Source: Sinorhizobium meliloti (lineage in GTDB: Bacteria; Pseudomonadota; Alphaproteobacteria; Rhizobiales; Rhizobiaceae). From it: a DNA stretch of 64,000 nucleotides. Of this stretch, positions 3,173 to 8,315 are shown in pieces. Made by a program: the position numbers and the translations under genes. How positions within the stretch are numbered: position 1 is the stretch's first letter; each line of letters starts with the position of its first letter. Location: the NCBI RefSeq assembly GCF_035610345.1, contig NZ_CP141212.1:563976-627975 (forward strand), read 5' to 3'. A model generated the notes under the pieces. That model searched no databases, was not told the origin of the DNA, and worked only from the letters and a program-made list of their open reading frames with translations.

Positions 3173-3457
3173 ATGAAAATTGTATGGGACGAGCCCAAAC
3201 GGCAAGCCAACCTTGAAAAGCATGGTTTCGATTTTGCCGATGTAAGCGACATCGATTGGGCGAGTGCCATCATTGAGGACAGCAGGACAGATGCTTCGGG
3301 CGGAAAGCGCTTGAAGGCTATCGGTTATTTTCGTGATGGGACAGCAGCGGTCATTTTCGCGACACTCGGAACGGAAGCTATATCGATCATCAGTTTTCGT
3401 CCTGCTAGCGACAGAGAAAGAAGGAGGCTTCCATGGCCACCAAAACCCAAAAGTTGA
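3173..3457 (+). CDS. brnT: BrnT family toxin (type II toxin-antitoxin)
   Basis: A 94-residue protein matching the BrnT pattern: WDEPKRQANLEKHGFDFADV at the start, a central DASGGKRLKAIGYF strand region, and the SFRPASDRERR end. BrnT is a RelE-fold ribonuclease. It overlaps brnA by 25 bp in the usual toxin-first order. The local sequence has lower GC than the flanks, in keeping with acquisition by transfer next to the tRNA. Confidence 0.88.
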   Translation: MKIVWDEPKRQANLEKHGFDFADVSDIDWASAIIEDSRTDASGGKRLKAIGYFRDGTAAVIFATLGTEAISIISFRPASDRERRRLPWPPKPKS

Positions 3458-3750
3458 AAACGTTTGAGCCAGGTCACGGTTACACGAAAGAAGACTGGGA
3501 CGCTGTCGATTTTCCCGAGTTGACCGACGAAGAGCTTGCCAACATGCGCCCGGCAAAAGAGGTGCTACCGCCTGAGTTTTTCAGAGCTATCGAAGAGCAT
3601 CGCAGATCGCGTGGGCGCCCACCGCTGGAGCATCCGAAAAAGCAAATCACCCTCCGGCTGGACGAAGATGTGATTGCTAAGTTTCGAGCAAGTGGCAAAG
3701 GCTGGCAGGGCCGGATGAATGAGGCGTTACGAAAAGCTGCAGGCATATAG
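3433..3750 (+). CDS. brnA: BrnA family antitoxin
   Basis: A 105-residue protein with the BrnA C-terminal ribbon-helix-helix region (KKQITLRLDEDVIAKFRASGKGWQGRMNEALRKA). The acidic N-terminal half (DFPELTDEELANMRPAKEVLP) should wrap the toxin. It overlaps the toxin gene and uses an ATG preceded by AAGGAGG. It likely neutralises BrnT and represses the operon through the palindrome upstream of brnT. Confidence 0.9.
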   Translation: MATKTQKLKTFEPGHGYTKEDWDAVDFPELTDEELANMRPAKEVLPPEFFRAIEEHRRSRGRPPLEHPKKQITLRLDEDVIAKFRASGKGWQGRMNEALRKAAGI

Positions 3751-4331: not shown

Positions 4332-5432
4332 ATGAAATTCCGCGTCTCCGACGGGGCACGATTTTTTCTGCTCGGACAGCGCAAGACGATTTTCGTCGAA
4401 GCGTCGCAGCAGATTTTTGAGGTTGACGACCTTACCGCGTATCTCACCTGCCTTCTCGCCGAACCCATGTCGCAGCGCCGGCTGGAGGCCGATCTCGTGG
4501 CACGCGGCGCCGGCCGGGCCGAAGCGCGAAAATCGGTGCGGGATTATCTCCTTTATATGTCCCGCGAGGGTCTGCTGGAGATTGCCTTCGACGCCGAGGA
4601 CGGGGAGCCGATACACACGCATGTGCTGGACATGCATGGAGCCGCCGTCTCGATAGCATATCACGATAGGGGCCTCCTCGATCTCATCCTGCCCGTATTC
4701 GATCATCAGGCGTCAGAGCGCCTGAAGCCTTCGGTCTCCTATGCGGTGGCGAAGTTCGGCAACCGCGTGTGCGTCAGCCGCAACCGTTCCCCCGGCATGA
4801 TCGTCGCGGCCAACGAAGCGGTGCCGGCGCTGAAAGCGTTGCTGACGGAGGATGTGCTTGCATGCCTCGGCACGAAGGTGGCGCTTCATGCCGCGCTCCT
4901 GGTGAAGAACGGGAAGGGGCTTCTGATTTGCGGCGCGCCGGGCGCGGGCAAGTCGACGCTGGCGCTCGCGCTCCTCGAAGCAGGCTTTGCCTGCGGCGGC
5001 GACGATATCGCGCTGATGAGGCCGGACGGCCTGCTGCGGGGCGTTCCCTTCGCCCCTGCTCTGAAGCGCGGCTCATGGGGTCTCCTCGAAGGCATGCGCG
5101 GCACGATCGAAGCGGCGCCGGTTCATCGCCGCCTCGACAATCGATATGTCCGCTACCTGGCGTCGATCCCCTTTGCGTCTGACGATGCAGTGCCGCTTGG
5201 CACCATCGTGCTGCTGCGCCGGCGCAAAGGCCGGACGGAGCTTGCCGCGGTCGAACCGGCGCGGGTTCTGTCGGAACTCTTTCTCGGCGCCTTTACGCCG
5301 ACACGGCGCCTCGATCTGTCGCAGTTCGACGCCCTGCTGAACGCCATTCGCGGCGCCAGTGCCGTAGAGCTTTCCTATATGCGGCTGGACGAGGCCGTAG
5401 AAATGCTGAGCAGGCACCATGACGGGACGTAG
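4332..5432 (+). CDS. PqqD-like / HPr-serine-kinase-like fusion protein
   Basis: A 366-residue protein. Residues about 10-85 resemble the PqqD/RiPP-recognition fold: a short beta-rich start, then helices with the pattern LTCLLAEPMSQRRLEADL and YLLYMSREGLLE. From about 180 the sequence follows HPr kinase/phosphorylase: LHAALLV, the Walker A loop GAPGAGKST (201-209) and a GGDD pair (222-225) where HprK has its catalytic acidic residues. It lacks the N-terminal domain and length of true HprK. The start at 4332 has GAGGGGG upstream. Its end overlaps the nucleotidyltransferase gene by 14 bp. Such kinases occur in RiPP clusters, where some phosphorylate precursor peptides; the substrate here is unknown. 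Confidence 0.75.
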   Translation: MKFRVSDGARFFLLGQRKTIFVEASQQIFEVDDLTAYLTCLLAEPMSQRRLEADLVARGAGRAEARKSVRDYLLYMSREGLLEIAFDAEDGEPIHTHVLDMHGAAVSIAYHDRGLLDLILPVFDHQASERLKPSVSYAVAKFGNRVCVSRNRSPGMIVAANEAVPALKALLTEDVLACLGTKVALHAALLVKNGKGLLICGAPGAGKSTLALALLEAGFACGGDDIALMRPDGLLRGVPFAPALKRGSWGLLEGMRGTIEAAPVHRRLDNRYVRYLASIPFASDDAVPLGTIVLLRRRKGRTELAAVEPARVLSELFLGAFTPTRRLDLSQFDALLNAIRGASAVELSYMRLDEAVEMLSRHHDGT

Positions 5433-6501
5433 CTACCGAAACCTTCTCGCGCTCACATCCTGCCTCAACGGCAAGCCTCCGCCTGACGTGGACTGGGAGC
5501 ACGTCATCGCGCTTGCGAATGATAGCCTGACGATATCCTCGCTCGCTCTCGCGGCGAGGAAATATGCGGTGGACGTGCCCGAGGATGTCCATCGCTACCT
5601 CTCTCTGATTTACGACAGGAACGCGGAGCGCAACAGGAGACTGTTGGCGCAACTGACCGAGGCGGTACAATGCCTCGACCGCATCGGCGTTGAGCCGGTC
5701 CTCATGAAGGGTGCGGCAATCCTGGTTGCACAGAAGCCGGACGAGATCGGGGCGCGGATGCTGACCGACCTCGATATTCTCGTCCGCCCCGCCGACATGG
5801 CTTCATCGATTGGAGCACTGCAGGACATCGGTTACGAGATCCGCCTTGCCGCCGGCAGCGGCTCATGGCCGGGAAACCCCAAATTCCATCTGCCCGCAGT
5901 CCTGGAGCGGCCGACGGATGCAGGGAGCATCGATCTTCAATGCCGGCCTAAAGGGCCGGCCTCCTTCAGCGACATCGAATGGCTGTATGGGCACAGCCGG
6001 AGGATCGCCCTCGATGGCGGAGACGTTCGCATTCCGTCGCCCTTTGCCCAGATCGTCTTCCTGATCTTGCATGATCAGTTCCAGGATGGCGACTACTGGC
6101 GCGGCCTGATCGATCTACGACACCTTCTCGATCTGTCGAAGCTCGCAGCTTCGGACAGCGTCGACTGGGAACATCTGATGTCGCTTTTCGCCAGAGGGTA
6201 CGAAAGACATGCGGTTGAGACGCAGATTCTGACAGCCGACATGCTGTTCAGGATAGGTGGGGCGTCCGCTTTGTCCGCCGGGAAGCTGCCGCGGCTTCAA
6301 TTGCAACGCAGACGCGTCCAGCTTGGAAGGGATTATCTCTTCGTCCCCTTCACCGTTTTCACGCTCCTGACCGAGATCGCCCACTACCCGTCCTGGGACC
6401 GGTACGGCGGTGAGTCATACCCGTCGCGGCGCCAGGAGGCCAAGCGGAAACTCCGCGAGCTCCGACGCATCTTTCGGTCGAGACCGTCCGGAAAGATCTA
6501 G
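5419..6501 (+). CDS. NTP_transf_5 family nucleotidyltransferase
   Basis: A 360-residue protein of the uncharacterised nucleotidyltransferase family PF14907. The segment VEPVLMKGAAIL (Lys97-Gly98) and the acidic motif LTDLDILVRP (Asp117, Asp119) fit its active site; residues after about 200 are helical with conserved ILHDQFQDGDYWRGLIDLRHLLDL. It is translationally overlapped with the kinase gene, so the two products probably act together. Relatives are found beside PqqD/HprK-like genes and lasso-peptide clusters. No lasso cyclase or protease is visible here. Confidence 0.75.
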   Translation: MTGRSYRNLLALTSCLNGKPPPDVDWEHVIALANDSLTISSLALAARKYAVDVPEDVHRYLSLIYDRNAERNRRLLAQLTEAVQCLDRIGVEPVLMKGAAILVAQKPDEIGARMLTDLDILVRPADMASSIGALQDIGYEIRLAAGSGSWPGNPKFHLPAVLERPTDAGSIDLQCRPKGPASFSDIEWLYGHSRRIALDGGDVRIPSPFAQIVFLILHDQFQDGDYWRGLIDLRHLLDLSKLAASDSVDWEHLMSLFARGYERHAVETQILTADMLFRIGGASALSAGKLPRLQLQRRRVQLGRDYLFVPFTVFTLLTEIAHYPSWDRYGGESYPSRRQEAKRKLRELRRIFRSRPSGKI

Positions 6502-6704
6502 AGTGGATATTGATGGCTGAAGGGTGCCGATTTCCTGTAACGTTCTTGAGTCTACACCAGAATAAATCTTTGTAGCTATTTATGGCTAATTATAATTGAT
6601 TATATAGTATTCTATATTGCGGGAAGCACCCAAATGTAACACTATTGCCCAGAAAAATTTTACTGTAAATTCGGCGAATAATCAACGCACAGGGGGAGGC
6701 GTCC
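6502..6704 (+). promoter_or_regulatory. AT-rich leader region of the Gly-rich protein gene
   Basis: About 200 bp of strikingly AT-rich sequence in a GC-rich chromosome. A possible sigma-70-like pair is TTGTAG (6570-6575) and TATAAT (6591-6596), although the 15-nt spacing is short. It suggests that the small protein downstream is expressed separately from, and perhaps more strongly than, the kinase/transferase pair. Confidence 0.4.
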
Positions 6705-7019
6705 ATGAGTTCCGAAATGCCAAACGGGCTGCCGTCGCGCAGCGACGAAGACCGGCGTGAATTTCTGAAGAACTGCGGGCGCTTCGCGGTGGTGACGCCC
6801 CCCGCCGTCACCATGCTGCTTTCGACCAGCCTTACATCGAATGCAATTGCCAAGTCGGGTGGCGGCGGCGGTGGTGGCGGCCCGAAGGGCAACAATGGCT
6901 ACGGCAACGGACCGGACGGAACAAATCCCGGTAGCTCGCATGGCGGCGGCGTGTCGCAGGGCGGCCCGGGAGCCGGGCAGTCGCAGGGCGGTTCGAAGTC
7001 AGGCGGGGTCTTGCGTTAA
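6705..7019 (+). CDS. Small Tat-leader, glycine-rich protein; candidate substrate of the adjacent enzymes
   Basis: A 104-residue protein with strong Shine-Dalgarno GGGGGAGG before the ATG. The leader contains DRREFLK (Arg17-Arg18), a good twin-arginine motif, a hydrophobic stretch (27-43) and a possible cleavage site after SNAIA. From residue 51 the mature part is almost wholly Gly, Ser, Asn, Gln and Pro, beginning with eight glycines. It contains no Cys in the mature part and several Ser. The family is not one I can name. Its place next to a PqqD/HprK-like kinase and a nucleotidyltransferase suggests a modified secreted peptide; this is inference. Confidence 0.65.
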   Translation: MSSEMPNGLPSRSDEDRREFLKNCGRFAVVTPPAVTMLLSTSLTSNAIAKSGGGGGGGGPKGNNGYGNGPDGTNPGSSHGGGVSQGGPGAGQSQGGSKSGGVLR

Positions 7020-7183
7020 TCGCTCGCCAATGCGGGTTGTGGGCCGGAGCAAGCCGGATCACGCCAATGAAGGTGATTTGTTAACCAATTTCTTACAAAA
7101 TTCTTGACGCCGATGATCACGGGCCGGCTGGCCCGTCGATCCGGCGCAGGTGCGGCATTCGTCTTCCTGAGGAGCTGGGTAGG

Positions 7184-7279
7184 ATGTACGAAATGACGGA
7201 ACACATGATGAAGGTGCTGATGAGCATCATCGCCGCACTGTCGCTCGGGTCCCTGGTGTTCCTGATGGCGATCGTCTAG
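7184..7279 (+). CDS. 31-residue putative single-span membrane peptide
   Basis: A short frame with GAGGAGCTGGGTAGG upstream of the ATG at 7184. The product begins MYEMTEHMMK and continues as one hydrophobic helix (VLMSIIAALSLGSLVFLMAIV) ending at the stop. Codon use is ordinary for this genome. It lies 164 bp after the Gly-rich gene on the same strand. The ribosome-binding site and clean hydrophobic segment support a real miniprotein, but function is unknown. Confidence 0.5.
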   Translation: MYEMTEHMMKVLMSIIAALSLGSLVFLMAIV

Positions 7280-7302
7280 ATCGCGATGACTGTGCGGCTC
7301 CC

Positions 7303-7692
7303 TTAGGGATAAAGATAGAGCTGGTCCCAGTTCTCCCGCGGCACACGTTCTCCAATCTTGTATTCGAAGGACAGCACCTCAAGGTGCTCGGAATCCGTTT
7401 TGCACCTGAATGCCAGTTTGTACCAGTCGCCCTTGCTTCGGAATACCGCGCCCGTCGCCTTCATCCTGTCGCCTTTCATGACGGGATCGGAGAAGGTATA
7501 GGCGATGACCTTGTCCGGTTTGAACCGGTTCTTGTCGGCGCCGATCCGCTCCATCGCTTCCGTATCGCAACGCTGCTCCAGCCGCGTCTGGGGATCGAGC
7601 TTCTCGAATTGCCGGACGAGGGACCGGTCCATCGCTTGCGTTGGGCATGCCGCCAATGTGGCGAGGGCGAGGGCGCATGCGCGTGATTTCAT
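7303..7692 (-). CDS. DUF930 family secreted protein
   Basis: A 129-residue protein with an N-terminal signal peptide (MKSRACALALATLAACPTQA) and the DUF930 core: LDPQTRLEQRCDTEAMERI and FKPDKVIAYTFSDPVMKGD. Two cysteines in the mature part (QRCDTEA, FRCKTD) could form a disulfide. The start at 7692 is preferred over 7728 because the signal peptide begins there and ACGGAGA precedes it. It is probably periplasmic; function unknown. Confidence 0.75.
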   Translation of the reverse strand: MKSRACALALATLAACPTQAMDRSLVRQFEKLDPQTRLEQRCDTEAMERIGADKNRFKPDKVIAYTFSDPVMKGDRMKATGAVFRSKGDWYKLAFRCKTDSEHLEVLSFEYKIGERVPRENWDQLYLYP

Positions 7693-7853
7693 TCTCCGTA
7701 CCGCTCCAGATCTACAACGCGGTGGCATTCCGACTCATCGGCCTGCTTCGCGGGGTGGGGGAGTTGTCAGCATTCAGTTAAACTATGTGGCCATTCCAAG
7801 GCCGCTGCCCAAGGCCGCTGCCCAAGACCACTGCGTGCCGCGGCATGTAGACG

Positions 7854-8315
7854 CTACACCGCCGAGACGTCGATCCATTTTGCACCGGTCAGCTCGGCCA
7901 TCCGCTCCGGGCTGATATGGACGGCGGCGTTGGTCGCACCAGCTGCGGGCACGACCACGTCGAAAGCTTTGAGAGACTCGTCACAATAGACGCTGTGAGG
8001 CTTGGCGAGCCCGAAGGGGCAGACCCCGCCGACCGGATGGCCCGTTTCCGCCTCGACCTCGTCGAAGCCGAGCATGCGCGCCTTGGTTCCAAACCGCGCC
8101 TTGTATTTCTTGTTGTCGAGGCGCGCATCGCCGCGCGTGACGATCAGGATGATTTCGTCGCCCACCCGGAGCGCGAGCGTCTTGGCTATCTGCGCCGGTT
8201 CGACGCCATGGCCTTCTGCCGCGAGCGCCACGGTGGCGGTGCTCTGCTCCAGCTCGATGACGTCGATGTCCGGTGCGTGCCGGGAAAAGAACTGTTTGAC
8301 GGAAGCGAGGCTCAT
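7854..8315 (-). CDS. YbaK/EbsC family aminoacyl-tRNA deacylase
   Basis: A 153-residue single-domain protein of the YbaK/ProRS-editing superfamily. The segment AKTLALRVGDEIILIVTRGDARLDNKK and the later GHPVGGVCPFGL loop are conserved substrate-pocket features. Relatives remove misacylated Cys or Ala from tRNA-Pro. It stands alone, convergent with nothing obvious. Start at 8315 has only a weak ribosome-binding site, but the N-terminus aligns with the family. Confidence 0.85.
   Translation of the reverse strand: MSLASVKQFFSRHAPDIDVIELEQSTATVALAAEGHGVEPAQIAKTLALRVGDEIILIVTRGDARLDNKKYKARFGTKARMLGFDEVEAETGHPVGGVCPFGLAKPHSVYCDESLKAFDVVVPAAGATNAAVHISPERMAELTGAKWIDVSAV

Follow-up and report, generated by a model that had tools for sequence, protein, structure and literature searches.

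A three-gene cassette, KIN-NT-GLY, lies in a 64,000-nucleotide stretch of Sinorhizobium meliloti DNA (contig NZ_CP141212.1, positions 563,976 to 627,975 of the forward strand; the whole stretch is called the window, and coordinates refer to it). The cassette is probably a modification system resembling those of ribosomally synthesized and post-translationally modified peptides (RiPPs), in which the leader of the substrate doubles as a twin-arginine translocation (Tat) export signal. Related trios turn up in many bacteria, which suggests that the two enzymes chemically tag a small protein before its export. In the open reading frames (ORFs) and translations of the window, KIN, NT and GLY are open at the coordinates below, and the gene order is the same in S. 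meliloti Ak57.

4332..5432, + strand: KIN, a fused leader-binding (RRE/PqqD-like) and HprK/PEPCK-fold kinase of 366 residues (by profile and predicted fold)
5419..6501, + strand: NT, a PF14907 nucleotidyltransferase-like protein of 360 residues (by PF14907 score)
6502..6704, + strand: AT-rich stretch with its own ribosome-binding site directly before GLY (by GC content)
6705..7019, + strand: GLY, the proposed substrate, 104 residues, with a twin-arginine leader (residues 1-49) and a Gly-rich core (by leader profile)
6855..6857, + strand: codon of GLY Ser51, the proposed phosphate acceptor (by Ser invariance in leader relatives)

The start of NT overlaps the end of KIN by 14 bases. The 203 bases between NT and GLY have a GC content of 38.9%, against 62.4% for the whole window, and contain the lowest-GC 165-base interval of all 64 kb (start 6526, 34.5%). 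A good ribosome-binding site, AGGGGGAGG, precedes the GLY ATG, and the AT-rich stretch is a probable separate promoter.

One set of 80 genomes, 32 of them from the genus, was searched for KIN (E below 1e-40), for NT and with the leader profile A4. Within the genus, all three are found in the same 20 of 32 genomes and none in the other 12; A4 was partly built from these genomes, so that its presence beside KIN is not independent evidence, while its absence where KIN is absent is. A leader gene lies near 22 of the 23 KIN+NT loci of the genus, downstream, upstream or divergent, and the sole exception (L047, genome G026) has its leader gene on another contig. Five of the 23 loci are paralogous cassettes whose kinases share about 32% identity with KIN, and all five have their own leader gene variant. 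The genome of the window harbors one KIN and four leader genes. Free-standing leader genes are also found on pSymA and pSMED01 (L032 9992-10303; L033 9980-10303 and 5734-6009), where they adjoin an ATP-dependent DNA ligase-like ORF and where no kinase was noted in the longer neighboring ORFs. These distributions bear on the explanation that the three genes are neighbors by shared ancestry or promoter only, without a working link. Such an origin would be compatible with leader genes far from any kinase, with the AT-rich stretch that GLY has to itself upstream, and with the large share of the sampling that falls inside one genus. The matching presence in 32 genomes, the persistence of linkage while gene order varies, the separate leader gene of each paralogous cassette and the recurrence of the arrangement in distant classes argue against it, and this explanation, already disfavored, is very improbable.

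Outside the genus, in a class sample of 385 alphaproteobacterial genomes, leader matches are found in 10 genomes at E < 1e-5 and, more weakly, in two others at 7e-4. A KIN-type kinase is present outside the genus in eight genomes, at full length in G427, G440, G462, G265, G166, G392 and G158 and split over two contigs in G449. In six of the eight (G427, G462, G265, G166, G449 and G392) a leader gene lies beside the kinase, that of G392 being a weak match truncated where the contig ends. The leaders of G440 and G158 are at other places in the genome. The overlap of seven of eight kinase genomes with 10 of 384 leader genomes has a chance probability of 4e-12, kinship ignored. On a contig of G158 different from that of its kinase (L159 5926-6837), there are three tandem leader-like genes with Cys-rich cores (CEPCTPCD and the like).

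Among 45 named loci gathered by a kinase P-loop pattern, eight have a leader-profile match, including Ensifer sp. IC3342, S. saheli, two Mesorhizobium and R. rhizogenes; weaker matches occur in a Terriglobia metagenome-assembled genome (MAG), a Planctomycetota MAG and BMS3Bbin14. In the named Ensifer, Sinorhizobium, Mesorhizobium and Rhizobium genomes, the leader genes adjoin the kinase. A regular-expression scan of the same 45 loci gave a match in 18, several of them plainly chance ORFs, and is a lead only, superseded by the zoned count given below. The first-pass annotation of this DNA had named an absence of recurrent linkage of the three genes as refuting its reading; the linkage is instead very strong in the genus, across the Alphaproteobacteria and, where the small proteins are different ones, at the HPr-rel-A loci of the phylum described below.

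GLY consists of RREFLKNCGRFAVVTPPAVTMLLSTSLTSNAIA followed by KSGGGG and a Gly-rich tail. Its leader contains RREFLK, by its sequence a twin-arginine motif before a hydrophobic stretch, as in Tat substrates, and leader alignments show CGRFAxxTPPxVTxLL. No Pfam or NCBIfam family, TAT signal models included, matched GLY at E <= 1. In all, 69 leader-like sequences were collected, of which the 59 with E < 1e-14 were counted and the 10 most distant dropped. The RR pair is present in 59/59, though the collection was anchored on it; F at +3 (58/59) and L at +4 (57/59) were not forced to that degree by the collection. A serine lies 34 residues past the first Arg in all 59 close leaders and in 18/18 representatives, where the only invariant residues are R, R, G, A, P and this S. 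It stands one or two residues past the likely AxA cleavage site; in GLY it is Ser51, two residues past the predicted AIA site (read by eye). Behind the conserved leader, the core varies freely. Many alphaproteobacterial cores have GNNGxGNGxxDGxPG and a C-terminal Arg, and Lys-rich, His-rich and Trp-rich cores share the same leader; a single modified core motif was considered and rejected, since none holds across the leader family.

The leader is conserved well past the twin arginines and into its hydrophobic part (G8, A11 and P16 are invariant in the 18 representatives), as if it were read before Tat. The RRE-kinase could then be a Tat proofreading chaperone that binds the leader and delays export, its kinase domain regulating release without marking the substrate. 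Such a role would leave both the NT gene and the invariant Ser past the leader unexplained, and we consider it distinctly unlikely.

KIN has the same start in the annotation of S. meliloti Ak57, where it is named 'serine kinase'. An RRE/PqqD-like domain occupies about residues 9-85 and an HprK/PEPCK-fold kinase about residues 90-366. Scores of the single sequence are low for TIGR04352 (66.2 bits, cut-off 200), Hpr_kinase_C (25.2 bits, cut-off 33.3) and TIGR00679, the HPr kinase (28, below the cut-off of 240); taken singly, the sequence gives a weak HprK-like assignment, which profile and predicted fold make firm. The best structural matches of the predicted kinase domain are PEPCKs, and the fold rows of the VIA-align comparison span residues 70-366, the N-terminal domain having a pLDDT of mostly 60-85. 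KIN shares its fold family with HPr kinase/phosphorylase and ATP-PEPCK, with the Walker A region and DD pair in the same order, and differs from both in the added N-terminal RRE domain. This PqqD-like part has no Pfam or NCBIfam match, and TIGR04353 gave no KIN match at E <= 0.01. A 10-sequence profile matched the solved structures of TbiB1 (E 7.6e-6) and TfuB1 (E 3.1e-5), which supports a predicted relationship to the B1/PqqD leader-binding proteins of lasso peptides. The RRE and HprK matches both fall inside the single protein KIN.

NT matches PF14907 (NTP_transf_5) with 98.9 bits, over the gathering cut-off of 31.2, and residues K97, G98, R113, D117 and D119 are invariant in 15 sequences. 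The predicted model (pLDDT 82.4, pTM 0.84) has nucleotidyltransferases as its closest folds (E about 1e-3) and resembles aminoglycoside nucleotidyltransferases and FKRP. In genome G031 (L043 5934-6731) the NT match is split into two pieces in separate open frames, and that copy may be broken or misassembled. The first-pass annotation had described a kinase gene with a PqqD-like domain overlapping an NTP_transf_5 gene, followed by an AT-rich leader and a Tat-leader Gly-rich small protein; all of these elements are borne out, and its interpretation as a whole is partly supported.

The closest studied system to the KIN-NT-GLY cassette is that of the linear polyphosphorylated peptides (LPP) of the Bacillota. 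As described in the main text of PMC13381572, it needs no lasso cyclase and pairs an HprK-like kinase and an NTP transferase with an RRE. The pairing of kinase and NTP transferase is shared with KIN and NT, and LPP precursors, like the GLY family, are short, with a conserved leader and a variable C-terminus. According to the same text, the residue that LppK phosphorylates is Ser3 of the LPP core, directly behind the cleavage site; by sequence, the invariant Ser51 of GLY appears to occupy a like position at the start of the core. The systems differ in that the RRE is discrete in LPP and fused to the kinase in KIN, and that the LPP leader is YxxPxVLxHQxIxFETxxS, whereas that of GLY is a twin-arginine signal. 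LPP clusters also hold a dedicated SipW-like peptidase and an MsbA-like exporter. In a word search, the main text of PMC13381572 contained neither twin-arginine nor Pseudomonadota.

A second likeness is with lasso peptide clusters such as those of paeninodin (PadeK) and pseudomycoidin (PsmK/PsmN), which have an HprK-like Ser kinase, a nucleotidyltransferase homolog and a B1 leader-binding protein. In pseudomycoidin, PsmK phosphorylates Ser and PsmN adds a hexose to the phospho-Ser (PMC9266682). In these lasso systems the modified Ser is C-terminal, and a lasso cyclase and B2 peptidase are present. The B2-type leader peptidase PF13471 is found in none of nine genomes at E <= 0.001, that of the window included, and the cassette is ruled out as a lasso cluster on this ground. 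No lasso cyclase was noted among the ORFs read, no family search for a cyclase having been made at this locus.

An 'HPr-rel-A system' (TIGR04352 kinase, TIGR04353 PqqD_rel_X) that includes a peptide chaperone of the PqqD family is already named in NCBIfam. A search for TIGR04352 across 397 genomes of the phylum gave 51 places over its cut-off, in 50 genomes. At 36 of these 51 loci, a small ORF with a twin-Arg motif and a hydrophobic stretch lies on the same strand upstream of the kinase, against 6 on the opposite strand (Fisher p 1e-9), 3 further upstream and 4 downstream in the control zones; with control dipeptides, the upstream zone yielded 0 to 11 of 51. Read by eye, 33 of the 36 small ORFs look real and 8 more had been missed, giving 41/51, a figure that comes from checking the misses and the three doubtful hits while the controls were not so read, so that the fair comparison is 36 versus 3-6. 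An NT-like ORF is present at 44 of the 51 loci, and three of five tested ORFs between the small ORF and the kinase match the PqqD family TIGR04353. Nine further loci below the TIGR04352 cut-off include five with a leader-profile match. Because HPr-rel-A loci hold a kinase, a PqqD protein, an NT-like ORF and, in most cases, an upstream twin-Arg small ORF, the KIN-NT-GLY cassette looks like a fused relative of this common four-gene arrangement. It differs in its sub-cut-off TIGR04352 score, in having no TIGR04353 match, in the fusion and in its substrate family.

Ten HPr-rel-A small proteins scanned against NCBIfam and Pfam matched no family over its cut-off, the TAT signal models giving weak sub-cut-off matches for two. 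Positions +1 to +5 contain Ser in 31/38 HPr-rel-A small proteins, compared with 15-16/38 in three later five-residue stretches, and Ser stands at +3 in 42% against a background of 9%. As the cleavage sites come from a crude AxA rule that clearly misplaced some of them (for example in L260 and L272), this enrichment is supporting evidence only. CxxSGxxSG-like starts are common to the small proteins of L179, L180, L181, L187, L245, L255, L270 and L272, and some of this type then carry SPGYW-like motifs, possibly marking a second substrate family.

HPr-rel-A loci (L243-L281) often lie among XrtA/PEP-CTERM exopolysaccharide genes. Of 84 neighboring proteins scanned, a choice from 145 ORFs near the kinases, 10 match the XrtA glycosyltransferase TIGR03088 and 9 the XrtA amidotransferase TIGR03108 (E <= 1e-15), in a scan where homologous enzymes cross-match. 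This setting fits the alternative of a sugar, lipid or polysaccharide intermediate as the target of KIN and NT, the Tat protein being a periplasmic partner in the pathway and not the substrate. The best fold matches of the KIN kinase domain, the PEPCKs, are small-molecule enzymes, and the resemblance of NT to aminoglycoside nucleotidyltransferases and FKRP points the same way. A leader-binding domain in the kinase and a conserved leader with a free core point instead to a peptide substrate; moreover, a polysaccharide setting is likewise seen for LPP and paeninodin loci, whose kinase nonetheless acts on the peptide (for LPP, main text of PMC13381572). We regard action on such an intermediate as unlikely, though the least so of the alternatives. 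Given the XrtA-type genes near HPr-rel-A loci and the polysaccharide context of LPP loci (same text), a surface or biofilm role for the system is a fair guess.

From the genes, their linkage, the fold assignments and the invariant Ser, we infer the following course of RiPP-like modification. The N-terminal domain of KIN, by its homology to lasso B1 proteins, would bind the GLY leader, and the kinase domain would place one or more phosphates on Ser51, as the position and invariance of this residue suggest. NT might then add a further group, a hexose or a nucleotide, to the phosphate, by analogy with PsmN; this capping is perhaps what happens and is the weakest step of the scheme. The finished GLY could exit via Tat, its leader being cut by the general signal peptidase, so that no dedicated transporter or leader peptidase would be needed. 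A single KIN-NT pair may act on several of the leader-bearing substrates that a genome encodes. The scheme would explain why the leader is strict while the core is free, why a genome has several leader genes, and the apparent lack of a dedicated peptidase or transporter, for which no family search was made in the flanks. More broadly, there may be a large unrecognized Gram-negative class of RiPP-like proteins in which a PqqD/RRE domain reads a Tat signal as leader, an HprK-like kinase and a PF14907 enzyme build a phosphate-linked group in the cytoplasm on a Ser at the new N-terminus, and Tat exports the product, with HPr-rel-A as a machine of this kind that handles different substrates; we judge the chances for and against this wider proposal to be evenly balanced.

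A number of observations weigh against the modification scheme. The Pfam TAT model does not match GLY, and among the 10 dropped distant leader-like sequences only one has Ser at the expected spacing. LPP and lasso leaders carry a [Y/W]xxPx[L/V/I] motif (main text of PMC13381572), whereas the GLY leader has TPPxV with no Tyr or Trp there. Deletion of lppN was without visible effect in the LPP study, according to the same text. A leader gene occurs without full-length KIN in G193 (99-100% complete) and G373, and G201 has only split weak pieces. Ten of the 51 HPr-rel-A loci have no twin-Arg small ORF, and the genome counts ignore the kinship of the genomes.

The first-pass annotation had raised the possibility of an undescribed system. 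The cassette is not wholly undescribed, NCBIfam HPr-rel-A and LPP (main text of PMC13381572) being already known. Within the PMC literature searched, which leaves subscription papers and preprints outside it, nothing was found on HPr-rel-A, HprK-rel, TIGR04352, TIGR04353, PF14907, NTP_transf_5 or 'HprK-related', nor, among the matches listed, on a twin-arginine leader in such a system. If the modification proposal is true, two enzyme families without an assigned role in most bacteria, the HPr-rel-A kinases and PF14907, would gain a substrate and a direct test; phosphorylated RiPP-like chemistry would extend beyond Bacillota to Gram-negatives, root symbionts among them; and a single signal sequence would act as both modification leader and Tat export signal. 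With Ser51 as the predicted site and with the leader known, the proposal is testable.

Other genes near the cassette appear to be separate from it. The 31-residue membrane peptide (7184-7279), which the first-pass annotation had counted as part of the cassette, is real and conserved and belongs to another gene block; it is present in 10 of 17 fetched orthologous loci and is ruled out as a cassette member. In L042 and L043, where the block has moved, peptide and DUF930 are still together, on the opposite side of KIN; the peptide of L041 and L045 is ~2 kb away from GLY yet adjoins YbaK. In the window, the peptide, DUF930 and YbaK form a conserved block at 7184-8315 that moves independently of the KIN-NT-GLY cassette. 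A BrnT/BrnA toxin-antitoxin pair (3173-3750) lies between tRNA-Phe (2739-2814) and KIN; it too is ruled out as part of the cassette, BrnT being found in 0 of 25 fetched loci. In S. meliloti Ak57 this slot contains a BrnA fragment and a HicB antitoxin, and because its content differs it looks like a variable site. Beside the cassettes of L053, L055, L056 and L151 there are large repeat proteins, Ig-like surface or type I secreted by appearance (by eye).

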